Positions 1-23,104 of a stretch of DNA of 35,787 bases are shown here, in pieces; the first letter of the stretch is position 1; every line of letters begins with the position of its first letter. Made by a program: the position numbers and the translations under genes. Origin of the DNA: a virus. The DNA lies in IMG/VR virus record IMGVR_UViG_3300027824_000009, positions 1 through 35,787 of that record; one strand, written 5' to 3'. The notes beneath the pieces are model-generated. The model was not told the DNA's origin, searched no databases, and saw nothing but the letters and a program-made list of their open reading frames with translations.

Positions 1-708
1 ACCCAGCCACATGGGAAACCCTTCGCCGACTGTCTGCACCGTACCGGGCGCATCACAGCCGTACTCGATGAACACGCCATCGATGCGGGAGAACGCAAAA
101 TTAGGCGTGCCGGCGTTGTACCAAACCTCTGTGGTGTCCCGCTTTAACAGCCACAGCTCTCGGTTTGTATCCAAACCCGCTACCAGGAAATCAGCCTGCC
201 CTCCGGCGGTCGAAAAGTTCAAGCTGTTCCAGCTGAAGAAGTCGTACGGGTCCGACTGGAAAAACTCAGAGGAGTTTGCTTTTCCGATGATGCCGAACCC
301 GTCCTGATAGGCGCAAAAGGTCGGCCCGGAAAAGGGCAGCGTCAATGCGGACACCGTGCCGCTGACCACGACATAGGCGTTAACGCCATCCACGATCAGA
401 AGTTGGATTCCGTTGTCAGCGATCGTCACCGGCCCGCTGGTCGTAGCAAGGATTCCTGATAGCGCCGAACCGCCAGCATAGACCTGATTGCCGCTAACCG
501 CGTATTGCGTGCCATTGCGGTTGATTAGCGCCCGGATCGGGCCGCTGCCCTGAATGGATGCCAGCGTCAACCCAGGCGTCATATAGAGGGCCGCGATCTC
601 CTTCCCGGTCTTGGTCTCGACCACTTCCGGGTATAGATTGATGCACTGCTGGCTCGCCAGGTTCAGACTACGCGCGGTGTAGGCCGAACCAACCAAAGGA
701 GTGCGCAT
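1..708 (-). CDS. P22 gp10-like DNA stabilisation / tail hub protein (partial)
   Basis: The frame is open from an ATG at 708 to the window edge: 236 codons of the N-terminal part, with no stop. The start MRTPLVGSAYTARSLNLASQ, followed by CINLYPEVVETKTGK and later LWLLKRDTTEVWYNAG, is typical of the phage stabilisation protein family (P22 gp10), which sits under the portal and tail accessory ring and closes the DNA channel after packaging. It directly follows the gp4-like gene, the same order as in P22 (gp4 then gp10). P22 gp10 is about 470 residues, so roughly half the gene lies outside the window. Family call is from motif recognition and gene order; both agree. Confidence 0.85.
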   Translation of the reverse strand, partial: MRTPLVGSAYTARSLNLASQQCINLYPEVVETKTGKEIAALYMTPGLTLASIQGSGPIRALINRNGTQYAVSGNQVYAGGSALSGILATTSGPVTIADNGIQLLIVDGVNAYVVVSGTVSALTLPFSGPTFCAYQDGFGIIGKANSSEFFQSDPYDFFSWNSLNFSTAGGQADFLVAGLDTNRELWLLKRDTTEVWYNAGTPNFAFSRIDGVFIEYGCDAPGTVQTVGEGFPMWLG

Positions 709-715
709 CGCCGCA

Positions 716-1432
716 TCACCTTGAGTAGTTGTTCGAGATGATGTTGTAGGTTCCGGGACCTCTGCTCACGAGTTCCGGGTCGAACTTGACCTCCAGCGGG
801 CGGTAGTTCCGCCGCTTGACCCACGCCTTGCTTTCGGCCGCCCTGGCTTGCAGCGTCTGCCCCGGTTCGCCCGGCAGGAAGTCAGCCCACAGAAGCACCG
901 CCATGTTGTTGTTCAGCGCCGAAAGGTAGCCAGGCGGCAGGGACACCGCGGTTGACAGGTCCGGGAACCCGGCAAGCTGTACGGTCGCGTCGAAGAACAG
1001 CGTGTAGCCACCCGAGTTCGGCACCGGGTAGACATTCAGGATGCCGGTTGGGAATTGCGGATCGTAGAACATGTCGGTAGGCACGTTTCCGGTTACTGAC
1101 CGGTTGGTGTTCATGTTCCAGGTGTTCTGATCCCTGATGGTAATTGGCCAATTGTTGAAGTTGACATCCTGGACGTAAGCCGAGCCGGCGGCGTAGTTGA
1201 TCGAGATCGGTCGCGCAGCGCCGGTCAGGCTGTATGCCGCCTGATTGACCACCAGCGGGATAGCCGTCTCGGTGTTCGCGTAGCACATGAGATTTTCGTT
1301 CGACCATTCGTCGATCATCTCATTCAGCAGTGCGAGAGCTGTGGCGCTGTCAGCCGAACCGATCGTCTCACCGGGCGCGTAAACGCCGATGCGCGAGAAT
1401 GCCGAAGTGATGATGTCGAGCGCGGTTGTCAC
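716..1432 (-). CDS. P22 gp4-like tail accessory factor / head completion protein
   Basis: 238 residues. The N-terminus MTTALDIITSAFSRIGVYAPGE with ALALLNEMIDEWSNENL, and the C-terminal YRPLEVKFDPEL, match the P22 tail accessory factor family (gp4, packaged DNA stabilisation protein). Members add to the portal ring after packaging and form the platform for gp10 and the needle. It is longer than P22 gp4 (166 residues), as is common in proteobacterial relatives. The start overlaps the stop of the upstream small gene, and a gp10-like gene follows 7 bases after its stop. No lysozyme-type catalytic motif was recognised. Confidence 0.85.
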   Translation of the reverse strand: MTTALDIITSAFSRIGVYAPGETIGSADSATALALLNEMIDEWSNENLMCYANTETAIPLVVNQAAYSLTGAARPISINYAAGSAYVQDVNFNNWPITIRDQNTWNMNTNRSVTGNVPTDMFYDPQFPTGILNVYPVPNSGGYTLFFDATVQLAGFPDLSTAVSLPPGYLSALNNNMAVLLWADFLPGEPGQTLQARAAESKAWVKRRNYRPLEVKFDPELVSRGPGTYNIISNNYSR

Positions 1433-1749
1433 GACGCGTTAGGCTGCGCCTCTAGAAGACGCGCCTCCTCTAGCACGTTCTGCACCAGCACATCCCCGAC
1501 CCACTTTGGGTAGTCGTGATGCACAAAGGCCGGCGTGGGGCGGTGGACCTTCTGCGCCCTGAAAGCGGCCGGGTTCGGCGTTCCGCCCATCTTGTAACCG
1601 CGCGCTTCGTGCTCTAGGCGCTGGTCCTCATTGTGTACCAGCACAGGTGGGAACTTCATCGGCTGGCGCAGCGTCGGGTCGTCGGAGATTGTCGCCGACC
1701 GCATCGCCGGGTGGTGCATCCACATCGGGTAGTCCTGATACTGATCCAT
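1429..1749 (-). CDS. Hypothetical phage protein between hydrolase and gp4-like gene
   Basis: 106 residues, rich in His, Pro and Tyr near the N-terminus (MDQYQDYPMWMHHPAMRS) and ending in a short helix, VQNVLEEARLLEAQ. The ATG at 1749 is preferred over the one at 1755 because AGGAG lies 6 bases upstream of it but directly abuts the other. The segment MKFPPVLVHNEDQRLEHEARGYK looks like a conserved block: short proteins carrying such a head-like motif occur in tail or capsid clusters of related phages, but I cannot assign a function. It overlaps the gp4-like start by 4 bases, so it is almost certainly co-translated with the head-completion genes. Confidence 0.7.
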   Translation of the reverse strand: MDQYQDYPMWMHHPAMRSATISDDPTLRQPMKFPPVLVHNEDQRLEHEARGYKMGGTPNPAAFRAQKVHRPTPAFVHHDYPKWVGDVLVQNVLEEARLLEAQPNAS

Positions 1750-1758
1750 TGTCATCTC

Positions 1759-2838
1759 CTACCGGTGCCCGCCGACCGCCGATGCCAGGGCGTTCAGGAT
1801 GATGTTATCTGCCCACGGCACGGAAATCTGGTGCGCCGTGGCGGTGTAATCCCACAACAGGGTGTAGTTGATCTGCTCCGGGTTGAAGCTTGCCGTGGTG
1901 GCTCCGCTTCTCAGGTTGGCCACGTAGCCGAGTGTATAGGTATACCAGTCCTGTCCGCCGTGCGAACTGGCGCACGAGCCACTTACCCATTGCGTAGGCC
2001 CAAAGCAGCAGTCATCACTGATGCCCAGAATCTGCACCTGCCGGCGAGGCTGGGGATAGGACGCCATCAAATACATGTCGAGATAGCCAGCGATGGTGTA
2101 AAACGGGACGTTGGTTTGTTCCGCGTCGGCTGGGAGGCAGTTTTGATTGATCCCAGGCATTGAACCAGCGTCAGGGATAGAAAGCTGAATTCGCGGATCG
2201 AGGGCTGCCATCACAGTTGTGGTCCATCCTCCACCGGACAGCCCAACCATGTCGTAGCGGGAGAACGATCTGTGCGCGTCCCAGTAGTTTTCCGCCTCCA
2301 CGAGCGGTTCCAGAAAGTACTGCATCGCAGTGTTGCCGAAACTCGCAAACATCGCGGTGTGGTCACTCGCGACGCCGCAGGTGGGCGGGCGCGGCATGTT
2401 GTAGGCGAAGACGGAATACCCCGCATTGAGCAGTGCCACGAGCAATTGTGTCGTGTTGTACACCGCGGAGAATGACGGCCAATCGCAGGTGTCTTGATGC
2501 CCCATGTTGACGATGACCACGCGCCCGTTGTTTGGCGAGTTCGCGTGATAGAGCAAGCTCGTGTATGTCTGGGCGTTGCTCATGGCCGAGACATACGAGT
2601 CAACGCTGGCAACATTGGCCGGAGAGCTGCCTCCGTAGGGGTTGGTCACACCTGTTGTCACGGTGGGCAAGGTTGATGGCAATACGCCTGTCCCGATGCC
2701 CCACGCTTCATTTATGAGAGCCGCGCGGCACGTCGCCACCGACGCTGTGCTGGTCACACAGCCAAGCGTGTTGCCGTCGATCGCCCATGCCGGCGCTGAC
2801 AGAAGCGCGAGCAGCAGTGCAAGAGAGAGGCGCCGCAT
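1759..2838 (-). CDS. Exported alpha/beta-hydrolase-like protein
   Basis: 359 residues from the ATG at 2838; a GTG at 2847 overlapping the upstream stop (GTGA) is the alternative. Residues 1-19 are a Sec signal peptide (MRRLSLALLLALLSAPAWA). The nucleophile elbow is VGLSGGGW with Ser201, after a long helix and a strand (RYDMVGLSG), and NMGHQ (111-115) fits the oxyanion turn. Candidate acid and base residues are Asp254 or Asp275 and His293 or His336. This is the layout of an esterase or peptidase of the alpha/beta-hydrolase fold; the substrate is unknown. Many cysteines suit an extracytoplasmic location. It lies in the late operon between a SPRY protein and the head-completion genes, where a cell-surface or polysaccharide esterase role is plausible but unproven. 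Confidence 0.7.
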   Translation of the reverse strand: MRRLSLALLLALLSAPAWAIDGNTLGCVTSTASVATCRAALINEAWGIGTGVLPSTLPTVTTGVTNPYGGSSPANVASVDSYVSAMSNAQTYTSLLYHANSPNNGRVVIVNMGHQDTCDWPSFSAVYNTTQLLVALLNAGYSVFAYNMPRPPTCGVASDHTAMFASFGNTAMQYFLEPLVEAENYWDAHRSFSRYDMVGLSGGGWTTTVMAALDPRIQLSIPDAGSMPGINQNCLPADAEQTNVPFYTIAGYLDMYLMASYPQPRRQVQILGISDDCCFGPTQWVSGSCASSHGGQDWYTYTLGYVANLRSGATTASFNPEQINYTLLWDYTATAHQISVPWADNIILNALASAVGGHR

Positions 2839-2843
2839 GCTCT

Positions 2844-3830
2844 TCACCAGTTGGAATAACCGGTCGGCACGGTGCCGACATAGGATGTGCCCCCGACATT
2901 GACCGTTACGGTTGCGGCATTGGCGGTGAACTGCCCGGAGAACCCGAAGAAGATGTTGCCACTGACGCCAGAGATGTCATATCCGCCTGACGGTGTATTC
3001 GGGTCTTGCGGGGGAGTTAGGCCGGCATTCCAACCGCCCCCCGCCCAACGGATAACCCACACCTTCTTGGCGGTTAGATCGACGGCATACCCACAAGTCT
3101 GGCCTACATTACACGGGTCAAATGTGTCTGTGTGCGTGGCGTTATACCAGGTTAACCCCGTGCCAGTGCTGATGCCGTTTTGCCATGCATAGCCATGTGT
3201 ACTGCTCCCTAAGTAGCTGCTCAAACTGGCGCTAGCATCTGCAAGGCCAACCATAACACCGTTGGTGCCGGCGCCCGTCGCGCCGGGGGTAACCTCGAAG
3301 TAGTATTTCCCTGAGGAATGCGAAGTTGTGCTCCGCACGCTTGACCAGTTTACGTCCGCCGGGTTCGACGCGGTTAGATTGACGTTGGAGAGCGTAATCG
3401 AGGCGGATTTATCCGAAGGGTTGAAGGTGACGGCTGGCGAGCCACCAACCAGCGAAACAGCCTGAGAGAGGGGTGAGCCGACCGCGCCGGCCTGGGTAGC
3501 AACGATGTTGAAATCAGCATACGTGCCAGTCGTAGGACACGTCGAGGGGCAGGTCAGGTTGCTCGGCAGCGTAGTTGATGACAGCAAAAACCCGCCGCTG
3601 TTCGTGCCGGTGATGGCGAGCGTGCCGGTGAACGAGCCGATAGACATCGTGACGCCTACGGCAGATATGACGTAGGTGCCCGTGGTTCCCGCGGTGAACG
3701 TCCCCGAAGATGGGGTAACGCTGAGGATGGTCAGGGCGCCAGCCCCGCCGGACCCACCCGCGTCGGTCAACGCGAGTTGCGCGCTGGCCGGCGACGCCAG
3801 AAGGCAGAGAAGAAGCGCAAGCCAGCGCAT
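2844..3830 (-). CDS. Exported Ig-like repeat plus SPRY-domain protein
   Basis: 328 residues; ATG at 3830 with AGGGA 8 bases upstream. Residues 1-17 form a signal peptide (MRWLALLLCLLASPASA). Residues about 33-130 are one Ig/cadherin-like repeat ending TQAGAVGSPLSQA, the same repeat type seen in the 366-residue protein encoded at 4879-5979. From about residue 150 the protein reads as a SPRY domain: WSSVRSTTSHSSGKYYFEV, NGVMVGLADASA, GYAVDLTAKKVWVIRW and FFGFSG. SPRY domains are binding modules and occur in phage tail or surface proteins. Likely a surface-binding or virion-associated protein; export is inferred only from the N-terminus. Confidence 0.72.
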   Translation of the reverse strand: MRWLALLLCLLASPASAQLALTDAGGSGGAGALTILSVTPSSGTFTAGTTGTYVISAVGVTMSIGSFTGTLAITGTNSGGFLLSSTTLPSNLTCPSTCPTTGTYADFNIVATQAGAVGSPLSQAVSLVGGSPAVTFNPSDKSASITLSNVNLTASNPADVNWSSVRSTTSHSSGKYYFEVTPGATGAGTNGVMVGLADASASLSSYLGSSTHGYAWQNGISTGTGLTWYNATHTDTFDPCNVGQTCGYAVDLTAKKVWVIRWAGGGWNAGLTPPQDPNTPSGGYDISGVSGNIFFGFSGQFTANAATVTVNVGGTSYVGTVPTGYSNW

Positions 3831-3842
3831 GCGAGAAGTCCC

Positions 3843-4694
3843 TCAGTTGGCGACGTATGTTAGGCCACCAGTTAAAGGCCCGGTGGTAGATGTGATTAGG
3901 CATAACCCCTGAGCAACGGTTGCTGTGCGCGCGCCGGTATTCACGAGGTTGGTGCCAGTGCTCGCCGAGAAGATGAAGCCGGCGCCGGTTGTGGTTCCGC
4001 CAAGCACGCCAGCCACGGTGCCGCCGCCGCAGGTGCCCCCGGTTCCCTCAATCACGGCTACGTTATCCGCCGCGCCGGCAAAGAGCGACAGCCCGCAAAC
4101 ATAGATTTTCTTGGCGCTGACCGGCGCGGCGATCTGCACCGTGGTCGCGGTCACGACGCTAATCGGCACATAGGTTGTGGCCAGTGAGGAGCACGGATCA
4201 CCGTTCGCATTGGCCACCGCGCCGATGGTGAACAAATTGGCCGACCCGGTGCCGATTGCGTTGCCGGGGATGACGGCCTGGAGGGCGTTCAAGATGCCCT
4301 TGAGGAGGGCGACCACCGAAAAGGTGCCGGTTCCGCTCGACGCTGCGGTGTCTGCCTTGGCGCCTTGCGTGATGCTCGCGCCGTCCACCACCGAGCCCGC
4401 GGCAAAAGCCCCCGCCGCAACCGAGCCGGAGGCAAAGGTGCCGCTGGCGGCGCTGACTGGCTGAGTTGTCGCCGACGCGTCGACCTTGGCGGCCCCGCCC
4501 GCCGTGATTGCCAAACCGTTGGCGCCGGCAGTCGCGTCCCAGATGGTGTTACCAGGGCAGAAGGAGCTGCCGGGGCAGGCCGCGCCGTAAACGGTCTTAG
4601 ACGCCCCGGTGCCGTCCAGGATCGAAAGCGTCGCCGCCAGAGCCGTTCCGGCTCCAAAGACCAGGAACAGGAGGAAGAAAGGGAGCTTTTTCAT
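3843..4694 (-). CDS. Exported Ala/Gly/Thr-rich phage surface or virion protein
   Basis: 283 residues. The start is the ATG at 4694, which overlaps the stop of the 63-residue gene in an ATGA and is preceded by a purine-rich stretch; a longer frame reaching 4805 has no such support. Residues 1-20 (MKKLPFFLLFLVFGAGTALA) are a signal peptide. The middle has short degenerate repeats (ASGSVAAGAFAAGSVVDGAS) then QGAKADTAASSGTGTFSVVALLKGIL, a block common in phage structural proteins. The C-terminal half (VSAKKIYVCGLSLFAGAADNVAVIEG) looks beta-rich with paired cysteines. Function unknown; it may decorate the virion or the infected-cell surface. Confidence 0.7.
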   Translation of the reverse strand: MKKLPFFLLFLVFGAGTALAATLSILDGTGASKTVYGAACPGSSFCPGNTIWDATAGANGLAITAGGAAKVDASATTQPVSAASGTFASGSVAAGAFAAGSVVDGASITQGAKADTAASSGTGTFSVVALLKGILNALQAVIPGNAIGTGSANLFTIGAVANANGDPCSSLATTYVPISVVTATTVQIAAPVSAKKIYVCGLSLFAGAADNVAVIEGTGGTCGGGTVAGVLGGTTTGAGFIFSASTGTNLVNTGARTATVAQGLCLITSTTGPLTGGLTYVAN

Positions 4695-4882
4695 AGGACA
4701 CCCAGATATTGAGAGTTGCAGGCTTTTGAGAGGTCGAACGAATGAGAACAGGTCGCGCTTGTCCCTGTGACAAAAAAGCAAACCACCGGCTCGGCGTCGG
4801 TGCATAGGGTGCCCGATAGTGTCTCGGCCTGCGCGCCTCCGCCTATGACAGGGAACAGGAGGAAGAGAGTTAGCTTCTTCAT
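4691..4882 (-). CDS. Small exported protein, partial duplicate of its neighbours
   Basis: 63 residues. The signal peptide MKKLTLFLLFPVIGGGAQA resembles that of the next gene (MKKLPFFLLFLVFGAGTALA), while its C-terminus KACNSQYLGVL repeats that of the preceding gene (EACNSQYLGGVL). At DNA level the similarity spans the gene boundaries: the AGGAGGAAGA tracts, the start codons and the following sequence recur at about 4660-4730 and 4850-4920. It therefore looks like the product of a tandem duplication with loss of the middle. Overlaps both neighbours by 4 bases, so translation is coupled. Could be a functional small secreted peptide or a decaying copy. Confidence 0.6.
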   Translation of the reverse strand: MKKLTLFLLFPVIGGGAQAETLSGTLCTDAEPVVCFFVTGTSATCSHSFDLSKACNSQYLGVL

Positions 4883-5979
4883 AGGACGCCGCCTAGATAC
4901 TGGCTGTTGCAGGCTTCATTGAACTTCAGGGTATTGTCGCAAGCTCCGCCCGTCCCGGTAAGCGTCTTGGTTGGGGGAGTGTATGGCGAGTTGCTGAACG
5001 CTACGTCAGTAGCCGTCAGGTTGATGTTGTAGGACGATGCACTCAGGGTTGCTGCCGCGTTGAGATTGCTGCCGCTGATAGCGAAGTGTGTCGTATCATC
5101 AACCGAGAAAGTGCCACCGAACGAACCGCTGCTGGTGGGCGCAGTGAGGGTGGCCACTGTAGTCCCGCTGGTCGTGCCTATCGGGTAGGTTGAGATTGAG
5201 AGGTTGATTGCCGTGATTGTCGGCGCACTCGTGATGGTGATGGTTTCGGCCTGTCCCAGCGGAGAGCCTGTCGCCCCCGCCTGGGTTGCCAGCAGGCAGA
5301 CCTGATAGGTGCCGGCGCCCGGCGTGCCGCTGGTCTCGAGGTTCGCCACGGCAATCTGGAAGCTGGCGTTGTCCGCTCCGTTGACGCCGTTGCACCCGCC
5401 TGCGGAATTAGAGAGTGATAGCGAGCCGGTGAACAGACCTGGCGGGGAGGTCGTAACGCCTATGGCGCCTACGACCGTGCCGGTCGGGCCGGCCGCTATC
5501 GAGTTGTTTGATAGCGTGACTGAGGCCAGTGTGATCGGAACTGAGCTGATGGTGATCGTCTCGGCCTGTGCCAGCGGCGAGCCGGTCGCCCCGGCTTGGG
5601 TGGCCGTGACGGTGATGTGGTAGGTGCCGGCCCCTACGACGCCCGAGGTTTCCAGGGTCGGACCAACTAGCTGAAAACTCGCCGCATCGGCACCGGACAG
5701 CGCAAGGCTGCCGGAAAATTCGCCGCCCGGCGTGGTCGCGACGCTCACGGTGCCGACAACAGACCCGCTCGGCCCTGCGGTGATTGAATTGTTTGACAGC
5801 GCGACGCTGTTCAGCGTGATCGTCCCCACTGATGCCCCGGAGGGCAGGAGGCCGTAGGTTCTGCTTGGGCTGGGGCCGATCGCCCCCCCGGCCCCCACGG
5901 GGCCATACAGCGGTGTTGCCGGTTGCGCCGCAGCCGCCGTTGCGAACAGCAGACCGGCGAGGACTGCTACCCAGCGCAT
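4879..5979 (-). CDS. Exported protein with three Ig/cadherin-like repeats
   Basis: 366 residues; signal peptide MRWVAVLAGLLFATAAAAQ. Three tandem repeats of about 90 residues follow: 52-145, 148-250 and 252-342. Repeats 1 and 2 share SNNSI.AGP, SGSL.LS, ASFQ, LETSG, GAGTY and TQAGATGSPL.QAETITI; repeat 3 is more diverged. These are the marks of bacterial Ig-like or cadherin-like beta-sandwich domains, usually adhesive. The C-terminus ends EACNSQYLGGVL, shared with the next small gene. Start ATG directly follows the previous TAG. It sits in the late operon after the coat gene, so it could be a virion decoration or a late-expressed host-surface adhesin. Confidence 0.72.
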   Translation of the reverse strand: MRWVAVLAGLLFATAAAAQPATPLYGPVGAGGAIGPSPSRTYGLLPSGASVGTITLNSVALSNNSITAGPSGSVVGTVSVATTPGGEFSGSLALSGADAASFQLVGPTLETSGVVGAGTYHITVTATQAGATGSPLAQAETITISSVPITLASVTLSNNSIAAGPTGTVVGAIGVTTSPPGLFTGSLSLSNSAGGCNGVNGADNASFQIAVANLETSGTPGAGTYQVCLLATQAGATGSPLGQAETITITSAPTITAINLSISTYPIGTTSGTTVATLTAPTSSGSFGGTFSVDDTTHFAISGSNLNAAATLSASSYNINLTATDVAFSNSPYTPPTKTLTGTGGACDNTLKFNEACNSQYLGGVL

Positions 5980-6420
5980 CTACCCGCCGAACGCGAGGCC
6001 GGAAAAGGGGTGCGTGCTGTCCGACGAATTGACAGACACTGACCCTGCCCCAGGCGATACGTTGTAGGTGCGGTCTGCCGGAATACAGGTTGTGCTGCCC
6101 GCGGTTGTGGTGGTCGCGGTGCCGATCTCATTGATGCAAAGCGCCGCGCCTGCGCCTAGCGGATTGTAAATCCAGCCGCCGTGCACCCGGTTGCCCGCGT
6201 TGATCGCCGTTACTGCCGTCCCGCCGGTCGTCACCGAGGCCACGTCAAGCGCGCGCTGGCGCAGTGACCCCGGAGCGGTAGGCAGAGGGTTGGCGGTCGA
6301 CGCCGCTTTCAGGGTGGGATTGCCAGCGTCATTGAGAGGCCCGCTGTACGAGTATTCCGGCGCCTGCGCCAAGGCGACGCCAGGTAGCAGCAGAAGCGCC
6401 GCAAAGAGCCATGCCTTCAT
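5980..6420 (-). CDS. Exported small virion-type protein
   Basis: 146 residues from the ATG at 6420, chosen because GGAG/AGG lies 5-10 bases upstream; an in-frame GTG at 6435 that overlaps the previous stop is the alternative. Residues 1-18 form a signal peptide (MKAWLFAALLLLPGVALA). The mature part is Thr/Ala/Gly-rich with two cysteines (ALCINEIG and STTCIPAD), consistent with one disulphide in an exported beta-rich protein. The block GGWIYNPLGAGAALCINE resembles short phage-encoded proteins that follow coat genes, but I cannot name a family. First of the run of signal-bearing genes downstream of the coat. Confidence 0.65.
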   Translation of the reverse strand: MKAWLFAALLLLPGVALAQAPEYSYSGPLNDAGNPTLKAASTANPLPTAPGSLRQRALDVASVTTGGTAVTAINAGNRVHGGWIYNPLGAGAALCINEIGTATTTTAGSTTCIPADRTYNVSPGAGSVSVNSSDSTHPFSGLAFGG

Positions 6421-6431
6421 TTCCCTACTCC

Positions 6432-6641
6432 TCACGACATCCGCAACATGAGAACGCTGCCATTGCGGTACACTTCGCCGACCGCTACCCCGGCGGTGGC
6501 CGCGGCCCCGTCATTGGCGGCATTGATGACCGACGCGAGCGGCAGCAGGTAAACGCCTCCCTGCATCGGTATGACGAAGCCCTGGGTATCCTGGGCAACG
6601 GTAGTCTGAGTGGTTGATGTAACGGTGCCTGCAACTGGCAT
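6432..6641 (-). CDS. Small hypothetical protein after the coat gene
   Basis: 69 residues, MPVAGTVTSTTQTTVAQDTQ at the start and GVAVGEVYRNGSVLMLRMS at the end. No signal peptide; Thr- and Val-rich, probably all beta. It begins about 1 base after the stop of the preceding small gene and its stop overlaps an in-frame GTG of the next. Small beta proteins in this position can be capsid decoration proteins; the size and location fit, but no motif proves it. Weak assignment. Confidence 0.55.
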   Translation of the reverse strand: MPVAGTVTSTTQTTVAQDTQGFVIPMQGGVYLLPLASVINAANDGAAATAGVAVGEVYRNGSVLMLRMS

Positions 6642-6853: not shown

Positions 6854-8035
6854 CTACGTACTTAGCCTGCAAGCCAGTTCAGGGTAGAACGTGGTAGTGC
6901 CGTACAGTACATCGATCCTGCACGGCATCCGGTGTGCGTTGATGTCATAATCCCGGATGATCGACATGCTGATGTTTTTGTACATCTGCCGCGCCGCAAA
7001 ATCGACGCCTTGCGGCAGCTCTTGCGGCACTGTCACCAGCCCGAACGCATCCTTCACGAAACCAACATTTTTTGCGGTTGTCCCGTTCGCGGCACCATGC
7101 ACGGTGATGTTGGCGCCGGCCCCAGGTGACACGTCGACCGTCTGGTAAGGCCCCGATGTGACGATGGCAGGGTAGATCGGGATTGTTGCGTTGCCGCTGC
7201 TGTCGCTGGCCACCGGGCCGGTGACGACGAAGTTCTGTAGGGCTCCGGTCGACACGCGCGAGCGCGGGTTGATGGCGTTCACGCCCTGGATCGTAATGAC
7301 CTCACCGCCTAGGAACAGCGTGGCAATGTTGCCGGTCCAGGTGTTCGTGACCAGGTTGGCGCCTGTCTGCAACGCGCTGTTGACCTTGCCCGTGCCGGCG
7401 AAGGCGCCGTTGGTCAATGACTGGATGTTCTGATCCATGAAGATTTCGAAGTTGGCTATTGCGGCAAGGAAGCCCTTCAGCGCACCCTCGGCCACGTTGC
7501 GAACGTATAGCCCTGACAATCCGACTGCTATGGACCAGTAACACGCTGGATTCAGCACCAACACGCGGGCATCCTGCGGAGCGCCGGCCTCGTCCATCCG
7601 CTGCCCCACGGCAGCCAAGTCGGCAAACGACGATGGCAGACCCGCGTTCCCGACCTCGTTGTTGACCATGCTGACGTTTGACGCCACGTCATAGTCGATT
7701 TGGTTGGCGATTTCGGCCGCCGCCGACGCCAGATACCGTTCGCTGAATTCCTCGATCGTCAGCGTAAGGTCCTGGATGGAGAACGCGAAAGCCACCTGGC
7801 AGTTGGTGTTCACCGTGATTGAGGTCGAGGGTTCCTGAACGTCTTGCAGGTCCAGCGCCACCTGCTTGACCGCCCGGAATTTCACCGGCTTGCGAACCGT
7901 GATTGTCGAGCCAATGGCTACGAACTGGTTCTCGAACATCCGGTTGACTTTGGACGCGAAGACTAGATTGTTTTCTAGCCTAACAAGCGTTTCCTTGGCG
8001 ATAACACTAGGCGTCAGTAGGGCATTATTAGCCAT
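6854..8035 (-). CDS. Major capsid protein, P22 gp5 type
   Basis: 393 residues (P22 gp5 has 430). The N-terminus MANNALLTPSVIAKETLVRL, then VNRMFENQFVAIGSTITVRKPVKFR, is the classic opening of the P22 coat family, with the E-loop region following. Later blocks include LTIEEFSERYLASAAAEIANQIDYD, LNPACYWSIAVGLSGLYV and the C-terminal QGVDFAARQMYKNISMSIIRDYDIN, all typical. It forms the T=7 shell around the scaffold encoded just upstream. GGAG lies 8 bases before the ATG. A separate inserted domain is likely in the 200-300 region (GKVNSALQTG to SGPYQTVDVSPG), as in P22 relatives. Confidence 0.92.
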   Translation of the reverse strand: MANNALLTPSVIAKETLVRLENNLVFASKVNRMFENQFVAIGSTITVRKPVKFRAVKQVALDLQDVQEPSTSITVNTNCQVAFAFSIQDLTLTIEEFSERYLASAAAEIANQIDYDVASNVSMVNNEVGNAGLPSSFADLAAVGQRMDEAGAPQDARVLVLNPACYWSIAVGLSGLYVRNVAEGALKGFLAAIANFEIFMDQNIQSLTNGAFAGTGKVNSALQTGANLVTNTWTGNIATLFLGGEVITIQGVNAINPRSRVSTGALQNFVVTGPVASDSSGNATIPIYPAIVTSGPYQTVDVSPGAGANITVHGAANGTTAKNVGFVKDAFGLVTVPQELPQGVDFAARQMYKNISMSIIRDYDINAHRMPCRIDVLYGTTTFYPELACRLST

Positions 8036-9409: not shown

Positions 9410-9802
9410 CTACCCTTCGGCGCTGCGGATGAAGCACCTGAGCCCGCCGCTCGGTTGCGGCTCCCCCTTGTAATAGAACGAACTCCAGCACGCCACCGGG
9501 TGGTCGACCCATGACACTACGTCGCGCAGCACCGCGCCGTCCGGGACCCGCACCCAGTCGTCCGGCGCCTCGGGGCCGAAGCTCTGCCGGTCGATCATCG
9601 CCTCGTAGTGCCCATCCGTCGCGCGCGCCTTGACCGCCCGGCAGTCGCTGATGCCGCAGCACAGCGCCCCGGTGCCAGGCTGGTGCAGAGAGCGAAACCA
9701 CACGCCGGTTTGCGGGTCGGTCTGCTCGACGCCGGGCGGTGGCGCCCCGACCGCCAACGACGCGACCAGCAGCAAAGCGAGCAATGTCAGGACCAGTCTC
9801 AC
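9410..9802 (-). CDS. Exported cysteine-containing conserved protein
   Basis: 130 residues with a GTG start at 9802 overlapping the previous stop (GTGA) and GGAGGG 8 bases upstream. Signal peptide MRLVLTLLALLLVASLAVGA. The mature region has WFRSLHQPGTGALCCGISDC, a tryptophan/cysteine block that I recognise from short exported proteins of rhizobia and their phages, with further cysteines at VACWSS and LRCF. The fold and function are unknown. It is one of two signal-bearing genes outside the run after the coat gene. About 70 bases without a gene separate its end from the next small gene. Confidence 0.65.
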   Translation of the reverse strand: MRLVLTLLALLLVASLAVGAPPPGVEQTDPQTGVWFRSLHQPGTGALCCGISDCRAVKARATDGHYEAMIDRQSFGPEAPDDWVRVPDGAVLRDVVSWVDHPVACWSSFYYKGEPQPSGGLRCFIRSAEG

Positions 9803-12220: not shown

Positions 12221-13939
12221 CTACTGCTGCGCTCCGCAACTGAAATATAATATCGCGCCATGGCCGTCGATCAGATCGCCATTACCGTTTCGGAAGAATG
12301 CTTGCCAAATGTTTGCGCTGCTCCCCCCTGTCATCACCGCCGTGGGGCCGAAGAAAGAACAACCGCCGCCTCCGGCTGGGACGAACGGCAGCACGATCTG
12401 GCACGAGTTGGTCGGCACAGTGCTGCCAACGGTAACATATCCAGTGAGTGTGCCGGCGGTAATGGTGGCGCCGGTTCCACAATTGGCCACCGTCGTCAAT
12501 GGTGGGGACTGCCATTGATTGCTGTTATAAGTCACTTCAAACCCAAACCCACCAGTGATTACCACATCAAGCGAGCCGGCCATGTCGTGCGATACGTTGC
12601 CGGTTATGGCGGCTTGGCCGGGTATTACCACATTGATTGCGTCGTCCAGGGAGAAGAAGGTGTTGTTCTGAACTACCAGGTGAGTTGGTTGCTTGCCTGG
12701 CATCCAGATACCATGGGAGTAAATTGTGCCGTTGCCGACTACGCGGTTGTTCTGAGCAATAATCTCCCCTGGCGCCCCGGCTGAAGCGTCGATGAAAGCA
12801 GCAGGTGCGGAGACAGACCCACTCGGGAACATCTGACTGTTTCGCACAATCACGGCACTGCCGGCGGTGCGGATCACGTCGCCTAGTGAGCCGGTGGAGT
12901 AATTGTCCAGGATCAAGTAGGAGTTAACCCCCATGTCGAAGCAGGGCATGCCCCCAATCGGGTGGGCAACATCGTGATATTGCACGGTCTCGCAAACTGT
13001 GTTCAGCCCTTTCCAAACACTGCCGGCAGACCAGTTCGCGCCCGACGCACTCGCGTCAATGAGCGTTGCGACGTTATCGCTGTTCATGTCGATGTAGCAG
13101 TTTGCGCAAAGGCCACCGGCGCCGATATGGACCCCATACCGCCAGTCAAAATTATCAACCCCCGTCATGGTGACAGTAACGCCAGTGGCGCTCGCAGGGA
13201 TATCGAGGATCGTGTTGTGTTGAGCACCCGCATCAATGGCAAGCTGGCACGGGGAGCTAAAACCACACATTGCCGTCCACGGTCCCGGCGTAAGATGCAA
13301 GTTGGTCATCTCAATGCTGTCGCCGGTGTAGGTGAAACTGAACAGATTATGCACTGCATACATCGTGCTATTGGATATGTGGGAATTGCCGGAGGACGCA
13401 TGGGCGAACACCAGCCCGTCGTAGGCATTGACGATGGTTACGTGGTCGATGTTGAAAAAACCAGAGAACGAGGAGGTGTCCGAGATTAGCGGCGGATATA
13501 CCGTCAGGCCATCAGTCTGATTGGGCCAATAGGCGCCGACACCTTCCAGGGACCAGCTATAATGAGCGATGAACGGCGGAACGGTCGTGGAGGTCAACAG
13601 GAAGAGCGTGCCGACGTTGTTCGTCAGGTCGATCGGAGATATTCCCGCGCCGCGGATCGAGCAGCTTTGCAGATTGATTGATGCCGCGCCGGTGAGGAGG
13701 ATTTTGCCTGACGGCAGTTGCAGGATGCCATTCGCGGCGGTGCAAGCAGCGGCAGCAGCGGCCAACGCCACATCATCGGAGGTAGCCCCGTCCGCGTGCA
13801 GCGTGGGGAAGATGACGAGCTTGTTGCCGCCGAAGTTCCCTTGCCCCGCATTCAGCGCGGGGCAGGTGGTGCCTGGGCAGTCGGCCATGGCCGCTTGCGG
13901 CCCGAGTAGGAATGCTGCCAGGAGGATCAGGCGACGCAT
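12221..13939 (-). CDS. Exported pectate-lyase-like beta-helix protein
   Basis: 572 residues from the ATG at 13939 (GGAGGG upstream); a longer frame to 13963 lacks support. Residues 1-19 are a signal peptide (MRRLILLAAFLLGPQAAMA). From about residue 45, LHADGATSDDVALAAAAAAC is the usual entry to a right-handed beta-helix, followed by rungs with repeated NxxI/V patterns (IRGAGIS, IDHVTIVNAYDGLV, HISNSTMYAVHN, IVRNSQMF, IIAQNNRV, LVVQNNTFFS). This is the fold of tailspikes and polysaccharide lyases. Having a Sec signal is odd for a virion tailspike, so it may instead act at or outside the host envelope. It overlaps the 104-residue gene upstream by 13 bases. Confidence 0.7.
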   Translation of the reverse strand: MRRLILLAAFLLGPQAAMADCPGTTCPALNAGQGNFGGNKLVIFPTLHADGATSDDVALAAAAAACTAANGILQLPSGKILLTGAASINLQSCSIRGAGISPIDLTNNVGTLFLLTSTTVPPFIAHYSWSLEGVGAYWPNQTDGLTVYPPLISDTSSFSGFFNIDHVTIVNAYDGLVFAHASSGNSHISNSTMYAVHNLFSFTYTGDSIEMTNLHLTPGPWTAMCGFSSPCQLAIDAGAQHNTILDIPASATGVTVTMTGVDNFDWRYGVHIGAGGLCANCYIDMNSDNVATLIDASASGANWSAGSVWKGLNTVCETVQYHDVAHPIGGMPCFDMGVNSYLILDNYSTGSLGDVIRTAGSAVIVRNSQMFPSGSVSAPAAFIDASAGAPGEIIAQNNRVVGNGTIYSHGIWMPGKQPTHLVVQNNTFFSLDDAINVVIPGQAAITGNVSHDMAGSLDVVITGGFGFEVTYNSNQWQSPPLTTVANCGTGATITAGTLTGYVTVGSTVPTNSCQIVLPFVPAGGGGCSFFGPTAVMTGGSSANIWQAFFRNGNGDLIDGHGAILYFSCGAQQ

Positions 13940-14241
13940 AAGAACCCTCCCCCGTTTATCCAAACGTCTACGCCTGGGGTTAGGCCGGCGGTTGAGGTTG
14001 GCAGCGGGTTCGCAAACCGCAGTCCTGAGATCGTCGTGACGCCTTCCACCGTCAGGTTGCCCATGATCGTTACGTTCATAGGCTGGGCTATCGAGTAGTT
14101 CAGCGTCCCCTCTACAGTTAAGTCACCTTGGACGGTCGTGTTGCCCGGCAGCGTGATCCCCTGGCTGTCCTTCGCCACATACGTTCCTACGTCGGAAGGC
14201 GACTCCACCGCCACGACAGGGTCACGATATTGCTGGAACAT
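13927..14241 (-). CDS. Short tail/virion protein sharing the tailspike head module
   Basis: 104 residues. The N-terminal 50 residues (SPSDVGTYVAKDSQGITLPG then GDLTVEG) match those of the 485-residue tailspike upstream (SPSNVGTYLAKDSQGITLPS, GDLTVEG). The rest has a second GNLTVEG copy and ends LPTSTAGLTPGVDVWINGGG then FLCVA, an ending common in phage tail and fibre proteins. It looks like a tail protein made of attachment module and C-terminal cap without the catalytic middle. Starts in an ATGA-like overlap with the tailspike stop. Could be a decoy or adaptor that uses the same docking site; this is inference. Confidence 0.65.
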   Translation of the reverse strand: MFQQYRDPVVAVESPSDVGTYVAKDSQGITLPGNTTVQGDLTVEGTLNYSIAQPMNVTIMGNLTVEGVTTISGLRFANPLPTSTAGLTPGVDVWINGGGFLCVA

Positions 14242-15698
14242 TACGCGGTTGTCCCATCTATGATTAGGCCGAGCGAAGCCAGCACGCCCAGCAACGAAGT
14301 AAGCGCCGCGCCGCTCGCGCGGGAACCCGAGACCGTGGGCGTTGTATCCGGGATCACAAACCGATCGGTGGAGCCGACCTGGTAGCTTAACCTCGGCGTT
14401 CCGGATGATACGTAGCGGAGGGTATGAAGGTTCTGGCCGGCATCGGTTAGGTCGCCAGTGAAGTCGATAGGCTGGTCTGCGGCGATCCTGATTGCCGCGT
14501 TCTTCACGCCGCCGTCGACCAACGTCGAGGAAGATAGTTCGAGGATGGCATCATAGAAAGGCGCGCCGAAAAAGAGGCCCGCGCCGAACTGGACGTTCGC
14601 TCCTGGAATGATCCCCACGCCAATGGCACGGCTAATTTGCGCCGCTTTGGTTGTGCCGAAGGCCCATACAACACCGCCATCACCGACCGTGCCCACATCC
14701 GTGGGCCACGTCGGTTCGGCCGAGCCGGAGGTCCCGGCCACCGTGCAAACATAGGTGAAGCCATTCGAGGCGGTGGGTTGAATGGCATTGCCGACAGCGT
14801 AATCGTGGCCGGCCTGCCACGCGGGCGGTTCGAACTGGAAGGCGTCAATCTCGATGAACGACCGGCCTCCGCCGCCCGGGTCCCAGGCGCTTGTAAAAAC
14901 CTCCGGGCCGTTCACGCTGAGGTCCAACTCCACCGCAACATCGGCGGCGATAGTGCGGGGAGGCAGACCTGTTGCGTCGATCGTCTGGCCGAAGAATTGC
15001 CATGCGGACCCCGAGCCGGTGCGGAACACGCTGCTGGCGATCCCTACGTTCGAGGTGCCAACTGTCGAATTGGTGTTCAGGATTGTATTGATTGCCCAGG
15101 TTTGGCCTGATCCAATCGGGCCAGCGGTAGCGGAAACGAGCAGGCCGTTTATGGTGTCTGGGCCGGGGAAAATCGGGCAATTATTATTGAGATCAATCTC
15201 AACAACAGCGTAGCCATTGGGGGAGTTGATAAGCTGTTTGCTGAAGTGCACACGGCCATCGTAGGTTTCCGTAACGTCACCGTCTCCGATGTAGTCGATT
15301 GGCTGGGAGAAGCCGGTGCCTAAGCAGTTGCCGTCCAACTTCCACAGCACAGAGCCATCAGAGCGCGGCGTCAGCGCGGTCTCAACATTGTACCCGCCGT
15401 GCGGGACGTTGATGGAGGCGTAGGTCGGAGCGGCTGTGTAGGCCGCCTGGAACGCCGCAGAGTCGTCCGTAACACCGTCGAGAACCGCCCCGTAGTCTTT
15501 GACGTTGATCCAATCGGATGGACGGTGGTTGATCTCCCCCTCCACCGTCAGGTCACCCAGGATCGTCGTGTCGCTCGGCAGCGTGATGCCCTGACTGTCC
15601 TTCGCCAGGTATGTGCCGACGTTGGATGGCGATTGGGCTACAACCGCTTCCTCCTCGGGGGACATCCACCGGATGATGATTTCCTCGGTGTCGCTCAT
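14241..15698 (-). CDS. Tailspike protein with pectate-lyase-type entry and carbohydrate-binding-like module
   Basis: 485 residues. Residues 1-55 hold the shared docking module (EEEAVVAQSPSNVGTYLAKD, GDLTVEG). INVKDYGAVLDGVTDDSAAF at 64-83 is the standard entry of pectate-lyase superfamily tailspikes. Residues about 293-348 (PAWQAGHDYAVGNAIQP, YVCTVAGTSGSAEPTWP, GGVVWAFG) resemble the W-x-x-G-x-x-Y carbohydrate-binding module seen in phage tail proteins. The C-terminus SGSRASGAALTSLLGVLASL is a familiar tail-fibre ending. Likely binds and perhaps cleaves a surface polysaccharide. Position between large terminase and portal is unusual for P22-like phages, where the tailspike is the last late gene. 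Confidence 0.75.
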   Translation of the reverse strand: MSDTEEIIIRWMSPEEEAVVAQSPSNVGTYLAKDSQGITLPSDTTILGDLTVEGEINHRPSDWINVKDYGAVLDGVTDDSAAFQAAYTAAPTYASINVPHGGYNVETALTPRSDGSVLWKLDGNCLGTGFSQPIDYIGDGDVTETYDGRVHFSKQLINSPNGYAVVEIDLNNNCPIFPGPDTINGLLVSATAGPIGSGQTWAINTILNTNSTVGTSNVGIASSVFRTGSGSAWQFFGQTIDATGLPPRTIAADVAVELDLSVNGPEVFTSAWDPGGGGRSFIEIDAFQFEPPAWQAGHDYAVGNAIQPTASNGFTYVCTVAGTSGSAEPTWPTDVGTVGDGGVVWAFGTTKAAQISRAIGVGIIPGANVQFGAGLFFGAPFYDAILELSSSTLVDGGVKNAAIRIAADQPIDFTGDLTDAGQNLHTLRYVSSGTPRLSYQVGSTDRFVIPDTTPTVSGSRASGAALTSLLGVLASLGLIIDGTTA

Positions 15699-20393: not shown

Positions 20394-21503
20394 CTAGTTG
20401 CATTTCTTCGCCTCTTTTTCGCCCTTCTCGGTCAGTTCCCAGGGCCCGCCCTTGCGGCGCTGCACTATCATCTTGTCATCGCACAGTGTCCTAAGCGCCC
20501 GCTGTACGAGGTACTTCATGGGCTGGCCGTCCTCGTCGACCCAGCCCGCCTCCCGCGCGATCTGGCCGTAGGACCACTCTGGATGGTCATGCAGCGCCCG
20601 GAGCACCGTATCCTCGTTGGCAATGCTCTGTTTGGAGTGATCCGCCACGGCCTCATCGGACATCGGTTCCGCGACGATGGTCACTTCCGGCCGGTCGTGC
20701 TCGTCGATCAACCCAGTCGGCACGGGACGGAGCCGGTATCCGAGCGGGGCAAAATCGGGTCCCCGGATTTTACCGCACCAGTGCATTTCGGTGACTTCCC
20801 CTTGGCTCTCGGACCACAGCACCAGGTTGCCGTCCATTTCGTTCAAGAAGGCCCCGCCCCCGCGCGGGAGCAGATTGCCCCGAGCTGCCCCTTTGGTCGG
20901 GTGTGACAGCACCACGACCGCGGGGTTTCCCCGGCATTCTGTGAGGGTGCGCAGTGATCGAGCGTAAGCCCCTGCCTGGACGTTCGAGTTTTCGTCATCG
21001 CCTGGGAAATAGCTGGAGGCCGTGTCCCCCACGATCAGGGATAACGGCGCCCCGAGCCCATCGACCTCCTGCTTCAGCGTGTACATTTCTTCCTCGGTCA
21101 GTGGGAACCCACCCGGCAGCACGTACGGCAGCAGGCCGGGCTGTAGCCGATAGGTCTGCAACATGCCCAGCATACGGGCCTCGAGGTCAGTTGGGTTCTC
21201 GCCCGCCAGGTAAAGCACATTTCCTTTGAATACATCGAGTTGTCCTATCATGCGGCCCGAATGGATCATGCAGGCATTATAAAGCCACACAGCGGTTTTG
21301 CCGTGCCCGGTGAGGGATGTGCAGGAATACAACCGCCCACGCTGGACGATGCCATCGATCAGCCACGCCGCCGGGCTGTGTCCTTCCACGAACGCCTCCC
21401 CGGCAAGGATGCGCCCGGATCGGTCCCGGCCGTTTCCCCGGAACCTAGCGGTAATCTGGGCTAGCTCGAATAATAGCGGGTCGTTCTCGATTTCGCCCGT
21501 CAT
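20394..21503 (-). CDS. RepA-like AAA ATPase / helicase with C-terminal winged helix
   Basis: 369 residues. Walker A SLTGHGKT at 63-70, GEN-P at 101-104, Walker B LSLIVGD at 154-160, and VVVLSHPTKG at 197-205 are the successive motifs of the RecA-fold RepA/AAA_25 ATPase family used as replicative helicases by phages and plasmids. Residues about 290-365 (LRALHDHPEWSYGQIAREAG, YLVQRALRTLCDDKMI) read as a winged helix. The gene ends at the edge of the GCTACGG repeats, consistent with an initiator/helicase acting on a nearby origin. No primase domain is seen. Starts in ATGA overlap with the preceding gene. Confidence 0.8.
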   Translation of the reverse strand: MTGEIENDPLLFELAQITARFRGNGRDRSGRILAGEAFVEGHSPAAWLIDGIVQRGRLYSCTSLTGHGKTAVWLYNACMIHSGRMIGQLDVFKGNVLYLAGENPTDLEARMLGMLQTYRLQPGLLPYVLPGGFPLTEEEMYTLKQEVDGLGAPLSLIVGDTASSYFPGDDENSNVQAGAYARSLRTLTECRGNPAVVVLSHPTKGAARGNLLPRGGGAFLNEMDGNLVLWSESQGEVTEMHWCGKIRGPDFAPLGYRLRPVPTGLIDEHDRPEVTIVAEPMSDEAVADHSKQSIANEDTVLRALHDHPEWSYGQIAREAGWVDEDGQPMKYLVQRALRTLCDDKMIVQRRKGGPWELTEKGEKEAKKCN

Positions 21504-21868
21504 ACTGCACGACGCCGCGCAGCTGCCGCCACGATGGGGGCGATCTCTTCCTCGGCAAACGGGAAGCCCGCGAAGCCGTTCTCCCCGTGCGCCTCGGCAA
21601 GCCGAACGTTCGTGGGCCGGTCAGCCAAGTCCCGCAGGCGGTGGCGGATGCGGCTTCGGGTGACGGCCCGGCGCGATTCCAGGCGGTGCAGATGCGCGCC
21701 AAAGTGGTGTTGCAGCCCGTGAAAGACATTCTCGGCCAGATAGGGACTGCCCAGGCGTTCCGCGCGCAGAGCTGCGGCCAGAAGGGTGGCGAGCGCGCTG
21801 GAGCTATGCAGGCGCCCCCAGGCGACAGGTTGAGCGAGAGAAGCGGCTAGGGTGTACAAGTCGGACAT
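21500..21868 (-). CDS. Hypothetical protein of the replication block
   Basis: 122 residues from ATG 21868, preferred to 21874 because AGGAG is 6 bases upstream. MSDLYTLAASLAQPVAWGRL, then LLAAALRAERLGSPYLAENV and a basic region RLESRRAVTRSRIRHRLRDL. Helical, with an Arg-rich middle that could bind nucleic acid. Lies between the VRR-NUC nuclease and the RepA-like ATPase and is coupled to the latter. No family recognised. Confidence 0.55.
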   Translation of the reverse strand: MSDLYTLAASLAQPVAWGRLHSSSALATLLAAALRAERLGSPYLAENVFHGLQHHFGAHLHRLESRRAVTRSRIRHRLRDLADRPTNVRLAEAHGENGFAGFPFAEEEIAPIVAAAARRRAV

Positions 21869-21897
21869 GAGCATCTCCTACAGGGACGGGACTATAG

Positions 21898-22311
21898 CTA
21901 GGCCGGATAGCCGGTTGGGCCGGTGGTGGCCTTGAGCGGCACGCCTGTGTCCCGCAGGCCCCTCTCGACCTCCTCGAGGCTGCGGCACGTCAGGACGATA
22001 GCGCCGCAGTAGTGCAGCCGCCTGATAGTCTGCTTCTGGGCCTCGGACAGGACGCCGCGCGCGGACTTCATCTCGACGAACCGAACCCTCCCGCGCCACA
22101 CAATAGCGAGGTCGGGAACGCCGGCAACCACGCCCAGGCCCTTGAGCCGGGCGGCTGCGCGTGGATGGCGCTGCCCGCCGTTCGGCACCGCGAAGGCCAT
22201 CGCATCGTCAGGCAGCGCGACGGCAAGGAACGCCACGACGGCCCGCTGGAGGTCATCCTCCTCGTGCCGCCGCCTGGGGCGGTCAGGCAGCAGTGTGGCG
22301 GTGGGGATCAC
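21898..22311 (-). CDS. VRR-NUC domain nuclease
   Basis: 137 residues with a GTG start at 22311 (GTGA overlap). HEEDDLQRAVVAFL (16-29), AVPNGGQRHPRAAARLKGLG (41-60), GVPDLAIVWRGRVRFVEMKS (64-83) and SEAQKQTIRRL (89-99) are the successive motifs of VRR-NUC, a PD-(D/E)xK fold. Catalytic residues are Asp67, Glu80 and Lys82 with an N-terminal Glu. Phage members act on branched DNA or as nucleases in recombination and replication. It shares its core with the adjacent upstream regulator gene. Confidence 0.88.
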   Translation of the reverse strand: MIPTATLLPDRPRRRHEEDDLQRAVVAFLAVALPDDAMAFAVPNGGQRHPRAAARLKGLGVVAGVPDLAIVWRGRVRFVEMKSARGVLSEAQKQTIRRLHYCGAIVLTCRSLEEVERGLRDTGVPLKATTGPTGYPA

Positions 22312-22799
22312 GCCGCCGGTTCGCGCTCGGGCACATCCACGAGGCGCTGATATATCGAGATTTTGGGGCTATGCTGGCCGGCTCGCCACCGGTAGAACGT
22401 GGAAAATGGGATGCCAGCCTCTCGGCACATGTTCCGCAGTAACCGCCCGGACACACCCGCGTCCAGGCTGTCCTTCAGCTCGACGAACCGAACCCGACCA
22501 CCCCCTACAACAACAAGGTCCGGGATGACGCCAGACTCGCCGCTCGGCGGCTTCGCGTTGGAAGCCGGCGCGGCGGCAAGCTCGACGCCGGGCGGTGGCG
22601 CCGCGTTTGCGACCGGCTCGCGCTCGGCCACGACGGCCACGAGGCGCTGGTAATTTTCGATATTGGGGCTATGCTCGCCGGCTCGCCACCGGTACCAGGT
22701 GGAAAGCGCGATGCCAGCCTCTCGGCATAAGTCAGGCAGGGACAGCCCCACGAGTTTCGCGCGCTGCTTGATTTCTTCGGGTGTCAGTAATGGTTCCAT
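22308..22799 (-). CDS. Regulator with two HTH segments flanking a VRR-NUC core copy
   Basis: 163 residues from ATG 22799. Residues 19-55 (LSLPDLCREAGIALSTWYRW to NIENYQRL) and 119-155 (RLLRNMCREAGIPFSTFYRW to KISIYQRL) are near-copies of one small XRE-like helix-turn-helix with the W/F-Y-R-W-R-A-G turn. Between them, residues 91-110 (VIPDLVVVGGGRVRFVELKD) copy the PD...ExK core of the VRR-NUC nuclease encoded next door, with the same 13-residue spacing (Asp94, Glu107, Lys109). The rest of the nuclease domain is missing. It faces the early genes across a divergent promoter, the place of a phage repressor. Function as a repressor is inference; nuclease activity is unlikely without the missing motifs. 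Confidence 0.7.
   Translation of the reverse strand: MEPLLTPEEIKQRAKLVGLSLPDLCREAGIALSTWYRWRAGEHSPNIENYQRLVAVVAEREPVANAAPPPGVELAAAPASNAKPPSGESGVIPDLVVVGGGRVRFVELKDSLDAGVSGRLLRNMCREAGIPFSTFYRWRAGQHSPKISIYQRLVDVPEREPAA
22321..22728. repeat. Direct duplication of about 108 bp inside the regulator gene
   Basis: The segment 22321-22428 recurs at about 22618-22728, offset by 297-300 bases. Runs such as GGGGCTATGCT, CCGGCTCGCCACCGGTA and GATGCCAGCCTCTCGGCA are identical in both. The copies encode the two HTH segments. A second stretch (TCGACGAACCGAACCC) is shared between the middle of this gene (22480-22495) and the nuclease gene (22073-22088). Together they show a duplication of an HTH plus nuclease unit followed by partial deletion. 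Confidence 0.8.
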
Positions 22800-22806
22800 G
22801 CAGACA

Positions 22807-22835
22807 CCCATAACAGCAAAAAAATCACTGGTCAA
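22807..22835 (-). promoter_or_regulatory. Putative regulator promoter giving a leaderless transcript
   Basis: Minus strand: TTGACC (22830-22835), 17-base spacer, TATGGG (22807-22812). Seven bases further on is the ATG at 22799, so transcription would start at or next to the start codon. No Shine-Dalgarno site is present there. Leaderless repressor messages are known for lambda cI from PRM. Confidence 0.4.
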
Positions 22836-22849
22836 GCTCGAACTTGCGC

Positions 22850-22878
22850 TTGCACGAAGTTGGCGGTCGTGCTACTTG
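22850..22878 (+). promoter_or_regulatory. Putative early promoter with dyad operator
   Basis: Plus strand: TTGCAC (22850-22855), 17-base spacer, TACTTG (22873-22878), preceded by GTGC as in the promoter at 19809. GCACGA (22852-22857) and TCGTGC (22867-22872) form a perfect inverted repeat with a 9-base spacer lying between -35 and -10, a fit for an operator of the divergent HTH protein. The first early gene starts at 22907 after AGGAGG. Confidence 0.45.
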
Positions 22879-22906
22879 TGCGTCTGTAAATAGGAGGAAC
22901 CCTCGC

Positions 22907-23104
22907 ATGACCAACAAACCGGACATCACCGCGGCCTTGGCACGGGACGCCGACGGCCTCGCGGGCGCCTTGCGTGTGCTGCTCGACCAAATCGGATCGT
23001 ATCCGGGAGTAGTACTGCCGCAGGAAATCACCGGCCTGTGTGAGCTGCGGTTGACTGTGCACGCGGCCATCCAAGCAATGTGGGACTGGGAGGGCACCCG
23101 ATGA
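22907..23104 (+). CDS. First early gene, small helical protein
   Basis: 65 residues, MTNKPDITAALARDADGLAG, then LRVLLDQIGSYPGVVLPQEI. AGGAGG sits 9 bases before the ATG, the strongest ribosome site nearby; the frame opens earlier at 22844 but without such a site. It resembles small early phage proteins of no known function. Stop overlaps the next start (ATGA). Confidence 0.65.
   Translation: MTNKPDITAALARDADGLAGALRVLLDQIGSYPGVVLPQEITGLCELRLTVHAAIQAMWDWEGTR

Follow-up and report, generated by a model that had tools for sequence, protein, structure and literature searches.

Xanthomonas phage PBR31, a member of the P22/Sf6 group, is among the described phages closest to the one analysed here, with which it shares a P22-like coat protein and gene order. 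A second point of comparison is Lom of phage lambda (PMC12309495), likewise a signal-bearing protein whose gene, in a tailed phage, lies among the tail genes; Lom is, however, a single outer-membrane barrel, whereas the present case concerns arrays of fibre- and decoration-like proteins. The stretch in question, hereafter the window, is positions 1 to 35,787 of IMG/VR virus record IMGVR_UViG_3300027824_000009, a virus of bacteria whose minus strand carries a P22-like head module. Between its coat and connector genes lies a 4.7-kilobase (kb) slot holding six genes with Sec-type signals, two of which end in a peptide tag that recurs in other phages. We tentatively propose, at somewhat short of an even chance, that the slot encodes virion-adhesin or decoration-type proteins with Sec signals that would mature in the periplasm and join virions at lysis.

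Signals and cysteines of eight probably exported proteins

A preliminary description of this DNA had placed Sec-type signals on eight genes, named here by their lower coordinate, and all eight are open reading frames (ORFs) on the minus strand (signal scores in brackets, followed where given by the residues on either side of the predicted cut):

1759..2847, minus strand: 362 residues, Sec signal (20.1; MKSMRRLSLALLLALLSAPAWA, then ID), 8 cysteines in the mature part
2844..3830, minus strand: 328 residues, Sec signal (17.0; MRWLALLLCLLASPASA, then QL), C-terminal half akin to phage virion protein families
3843..4697, minus strand: 284 residues, start ATG at 4697, Sec signal (17.2; MKKLPFFLLFLVFGAGTALA, then AT), 6 cysteines
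4691..4882, minus strand: mini-protein of 63 residues, Sec signal (15.3), about 25 further residues and the C-terminal tag CSHSFDLSKACNSQYLGVL, a member of the tag family
4879..5979, minus strand: 366 residues, Sec signal (15.7; MRWVAVLAGLLFATAAAA, then QP), immunoglobulin (Ig)-like repeats, C-terminal tag CDNTLKFNEACNSQYLGGVL
5980..6435, minus strand: 151 residues, Sec signal (18.1), small, one cysteine pair (2 cysteines), family unassigned
9410..9802, minus strand: 130-residue secreted-type protein between the scaffold and portal genes (18.9), 5 cysteines
12221..13963, minus strand: 580 residues, signal (17.5; MRRLILLAAFLLGPQAAMA, then DC, after an in-frame ATG at 13939), 14 cysteines

Each of the eight N-termini combines a basic n-region, a hydrophobic core of 8–16 residues and an A-x-A type cleavage site. 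The scores come from our own heuristic rather than a dedicated predictor, with independent backing from the cysteine tests below. On this scale eleven known E. coli signals reach 13.1–18.8, against 15.3–20.1 for the eight window genes, while the remaining genes of the window score 9.2 or less with one exception, a small Rz1-like lipoprotein with an LSSC lipobox at 26079-26327 (plus strand; 15.4), which is the sole further strong signal. Since a score of 14 is reached by only about 1% of shuffled N-termini of the same genes, the set of eight lies far beyond chance. Chance hydrophobic N-termini were rejected on the score gap to all other genes together with cysteine parity, and the eight signals are very probably real.

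Proteins that are oxidised in the periplasm are expected to have even cysteine counts. Within the window, cysteine makes up 2.24% of the mature signal-bearing proteins compared with 0.77% of the other genes (p=2.5e-7), and the mature parts of the slot genes all carry an even number (6/6). The same pattern holds across the 25 loci that carry the C-terminal tag described below, where, among proteins with any cysteine, the count is even in 76 of 81 signal-bearing proteins but in only 36 of 91 others; after clustering, the figures are 33/37 signal-bearing clusters and 27/76 others (p=6e-8). The export of late proteins put forward in the preliminary description is thus very probable on signal scores, cysteine enrichment and parity, and it is well supported that the window proteins are exported with paired cysteines, their cleavage in vivo being predicted. 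Because that prediction comes from our own heuristic only, the hydrophobic N-termini might conceivably be uncleaved membrane or virion anchors rather than export signals, but the cleavage-site pattern and the surplus of mature parts with an even number of cysteines make this extremely improbable. Some members of the arrays described below, at L184 2650-3411 and L205 5641-6441 (“L” and a number label the related contigs or loci compared in this analysis), carry signals that resemble twin-arginine ones (RRRFLLG, SRRRLIQVAAP) rather than plain Sec signals.

An exchanged slot and a recurring C-terminal tag

The minus-strand order is large terminase, portal, scaffold, coat, the slot, and then the gp4-like and gp10-like connector genes, with homologues of phrog_283, 156, 8865, 12985 and 578 (coat, portal, scaffold and connectors) lying in order. 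By our own heuristic gene calls, which apply throughout, the slot is framed as follows:

6854..8035, minus strand: P22-like coat protein, upstream border region of the slot (phrog_283, expectation value (E) 9.9e-73)
1429..1755, minus strand: small conserved protein, downstream border of the slot, kept in relatives
716..1432, minus strand: gp4-like connector protein (phrog_12985, E 1.5e-36; phrog_637, head-tail adaptor)
1..708, minus strand: gp10-like head closure protein, cut by the window end (phrog_578, Hc3, E 2e-38)

The position between coat and connector genes agrees with the earlier placement of the set within the late head operon, as does the slot's lack of promoter-like sites in a consensus scan. 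In that scan, which bears on Lom/Bor-type morons with a promoter and terminator of their own, terminator-like sites were fewer than in shuffled sequence. Translational coupling, which had been claimed for the whole set, is plausible at the three junctions where genes overlap by a few bases, 4879/4691 (ATGA), 4691/3843 (ATGA) and 2844/1759 (GTGA). The start of the gene at 3843, previously put at 4805, is the ATG at 4697, which overlaps the stop of 4691-4882. The tag-stop-start-signal junctions 4879/4691 and 4691/3843 (4640-4925, minus strand) are near-duplicates at the DNA level, as if they formed a recombination unit.

Relatives of the coat protein were gathered from viral and genome contigs. 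In the nearest of these, L002, the coat is 86% identical and the flanks align at 71–77% DNA identity, with the alignment breaking off sharply at both slot borders; its slot holds four large, signal-less proteins, one of them with a weak Ig-domain match. Complete slots of other coat relatives contain no or one signal-bearing gene, and such genes are mostly fibre- or spike-like (L092 and L039; L055 by eye only). A different layout is seen in L081, where three consecutive signal-bearing genes precede the portal gene and a fourth follows the gp10-like gene. The wholesale exchange of the slot between relatives is well supported, and we read the slot as cargo within the late head operon.

The Sec-signal-bearing products of 4879 and 4691 both end in the peptide ACNSQYLG(G)VL. 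A first search of viral contigs with a DNA pattern for ACNSQYxG, blind to stops and signals, returned 11 contigs; the pattern was in frame and within the last 10–12 residues of an ORF in all 11, and a strong signal was present in 10. With a second pattern added there are 25 loci (a few contigs being near-duplicate) and 25 tag ORFs, 23 of which have a signal, while the two without one (L190, L204) run to the contig end. All 25 terminate 8–13 residues past the motif start. Most are minis of 53–84 residues consisting of a signal, a Gly/Pro-rich linker and the tag, for which the strongly conserved consensus is C[ST]Nx[LF]DF[ST]xACNSQY plus a short hydrophobic end. As the patterns require the second cysteine, signal-less forms of the tag are under-counted.

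The tag marks arrays. Signal-bearing genes number 87 of 237 distinct genes in tag loci, compared with 13 of 1002 in coat relatives, and the arrays, which occur in several virion types, encode exported proteins resembling fibres, spikes and decorations. Their neighbours are terminase, portal, coat or connector genes belonging to several types of head and, in one case, a nearby baseplate gene. A tag mini followed by a 3843-like gene is an order that recurs across different phages. The existence of this wider array class with a shared tag is well supported. In one of the loci the large terminase itself (L200 6561-9050, 829 residues) matches both helicases and terminases in a way that points to an insert at about residues 150–400, possibly an intein. 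Protein searches with the array families tested found none in isolated phages, save for short matches leading to the Synechococcus phage Ssp-JY42, in which two genes with signals, at 23387-23803 and 21016-23376 of PP438432, lie close to a fibre gene. We found no description of the tag in the open-licence literature, to which the search was confined and which makes this weak evidence. A general host sorting tag was considered and rejected for the bacteria sampled, as 385 alphaproteobacterial genomes gave three pattern matches, none reading ACNSQY, and a stricter pattern gave zero matches in 297 genomes of one order.

These observations bear on whether the slot genes are simply unrelated morons, gained singly and each with its own surface function, that belong to no common system. 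Slot content does differ wholly between close relatives, and the protein of 9410 resembles, in our own judgement, a small host-type secreted protein. The shared tag, the recurring gene families and the recurring gene order across different phages all argue the other way, as do the two samples of alphaproteobacterial genomes, in which the tag was not found, and the slot's lack of promoter-like sites; we consider this explanation quite improbable.

Ties to virion proteins and a proposed route to the virion

The preliminary description took export to mean that these are not virion parts, a view against which the relatives speak on three counts. Several of their signal-bearing proteins match tail-fibre families (L092, phrog_4492, E 3e-42; L203, phrog_12796, E 1.5e-11; L039, phrog_863, E 6e-29). 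A 609-residue protein of L081 has a signal followed directly by the domain that forms the N terminus of the PBR31 tailspike, in L081 with the motif CSGC; among 61 distinct homologues of this domain only the L081 protein has a signal, and CSGC is found at that place in 0 of the 60 signal-less ones, so signals on this fibre N-terminal module appear to be rare. Finally, a signal-less protein of L194 and L205 ends in EDPDLDFSDAENSQYIPLIGG, which is the tag without its cysteines, and its body is the fibre-tail adaptor Gp77 (PF23148, E 2.4e-15), a relative of PDB 8jou and of a BcepIL02 protein that is associated with the virion. Given the fibre matches, the tailspike domain and the adaptor tag, the coating of virions after lysis fits best among the roles first suggested; superinfection blocking and polysaccharide modification by secreted enzymes are possible.

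Within the window itself, the protein of 2844 matches phrog_10080 (E 3.3e-15) and the virion structural protein family phrog_19943 (E 2e-7) and has a signal-bearing homologue at L198 10074-10808 (E 1.2e-11). That of 3843 has an ITQGAKAD module and a predicted C-terminal jelly roll that resembles phage decoration proteins, with homologues that carry a signal in L199, L206, L189 and L184 and lack one in L011, L013 and L014. Residues 151–264 form a predicted β-sandwich in an AlphaFold2 (AF2) model (predicted local distance difference test (pLDDT) of 64–94 by block), for which the best fold matches are viral proteins, some of them named virion structural proteins; the Z-scores (Z) to the HFTV1 turret and the KHP40 and Pam1 capsid proteins are 6.7–8.1, with unrelated folds at similar Z. 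The domain labels given earlier are weakly supported. The protein of 4879 has Ig-like repeats in common with two large viral proteins (L009, L010), and its tag matches those of the mini-proteins. A SPRY domain in 2844 is weakly indicated, with no Pfam match and only insignificant PDB matches to SPRY proteins (E 0.18). For 5980 there was no match in the phage collection, and for 12221 no family or sequence match; the latter is spike-like by eye only and adjoins fibre- or spike-like genes without signals, its neighbour at 14241-15698 matching tail-spike and head-decoration PHROGs. A CC..DC motif resembling that of 9410 occurs together with a signal in the protein of L184 8318-8632, a likeness noted by eye only. 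Elsewhere in the window, 25065-25787 (plus strand) encodes a RecE-like exonuclease.

An enzymatic role off the virion has also to be weighed, in which secreted enzymes and lectins would loosen extracellular polysaccharide so that progeny leave and reach neighbouring cells. L081 3246-5102, in the run before the portal gene, encodes a signal-bearing phage alpha-galactosidase (PF16499/PF17801), and the signal-peptide-bearing esterase gp40 of PBR31 is presumed to aid lysis (PMC10975493). The hydrolase label of 1759, on the other hand, is unproven: it is a candidate alpha/beta-hydrolase by its GLSGGG motif only, there is no significant family match, and the AF2 single-sequence model is unusable (pLDDT 31). 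Most array members, moreover, are small proteins and minis without enzyme domains, and we think this role improbable.

Alternatively, the exported proteins could be effectors retained in the infected cell or on its surface, where they would block superinfection or the binding of progeny to debris, the tag minis acting as soluble decoys for the receptor or for incoming virions. Exported late or lysogenic phage proteins have precedents in lambda Lom, T4 RI and the exported T5 Llp. For T4 RI, a cleavable signal is reported (PMC8385771). The tag is strongly conserved, occurs about once in each genome and sits in most cases on minis that lack an adhesin body, all of which would suit such a role. 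Multi-gene arrays with spike, lectin and fibre domains nevertheless exceed what exclusion needs, and one exported protein, that of L081, retains an intact tailspike N-terminal domain; we regard effectors as unlikely, though by no means negligible.

Returning to virion adhesins and decorations, we tentatively suggest the following course of events. The slot proteins would be made late, exported via Sec and cleaved, and would acquire their fold and disulfide bonds in the periplasm; at lysis they would meet finished heads and attach to them as decorations or fibres. P22 tailspikes are able to join finished heads in vitro. The tag is proposed as a docking peptide because a cysteine-less, signal-less version of it ends a fibre-tail adaptor. 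Homology, gene position and the adaptor tag suggest attachment to virions; that this happens at lysis, and that the tag serves for docking, is likewise putative. Extended to the tag loci at large, the idea would be that tailed phages of a widespread class put together some of their attachment machinery beyond the cytoplasm, by Sec export, periplasmic oxidation and docking at lysis through a C-terminal disulfide tag with a cytoplasmic counterpart on the adaptor, a generalisation that we offer with a degree more caution.

Several points weigh against this proposal. Tailed-phage adhesins are normally assembled in the cytoplasm, and none of the window's signal-bearing proteins significantly matches a named tail-fibre family, while the fold matches of 3843 lie at Z of about 8 or below. 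Only one protein, present on a pair of near-identical contigs, is known to carry the cysteine-less tag. A frequency of roughly one tag per genome, for the most part on minis that have no adhesin body, is not what one would expect of a general docking tag, and would fit the docking model only if the mini itself is a docking or capping part. Nor is the cysteine pattern uniform: 9410 has an odd count (5), and in the signal-bearing genes of coat relatives outside the tag loci (11 proteins) cysteine is enriched and the parity signal is absent (6/11 even).

What goes beyond the preliminary description is the tag at the C terminus, the pattern of cysteines, the slot's wholesale exchange and the finding that such a slot recurs in other phages. 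The general understanding is that virions of tailed phages assemble in the cytoplasm, and the arrays make the finishing of adhesins outside it directly testable; otherwise, they would represent a large and little noticed set of exported phage effectors. In either case the tag provides a simple sequence handle for finding them.

Comparison with known systems

The likeness to PBR31 extends beyond the head genes, as the N-terminal domain of its tailspike is the one found behind the signal in the relative L081. Unlike the L081 protein, the tailspike of PBR31 lacks a signal, and its first 110 residues are free of cysteine. PBR31 gp40 is, according to PMC10975493, a phage hydrolase with a signal, as 1759 may be; its gene stands beside the lysis genes, whereas 1759 lies between coat and connector genes. 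The predicted C-terminal domain of 3843 gives middling matches to the β-sandwich decoration folds of the HFTV1 turret (8qpg), KHP40 (7dou) and Pam1 (7eel), although identity to these turret and cement proteins is 11% and matches of this strength are also seen among common β-sandwich arrangements. A parallel to the tag itself is provided by the fibre-tail adaptor Gp77, in that the L205/L194 adaptor of this type shares the tag peptide minus its cysteines. That adaptor is signal-less, while the tag proteins of the window have both a signal and the cysteines.

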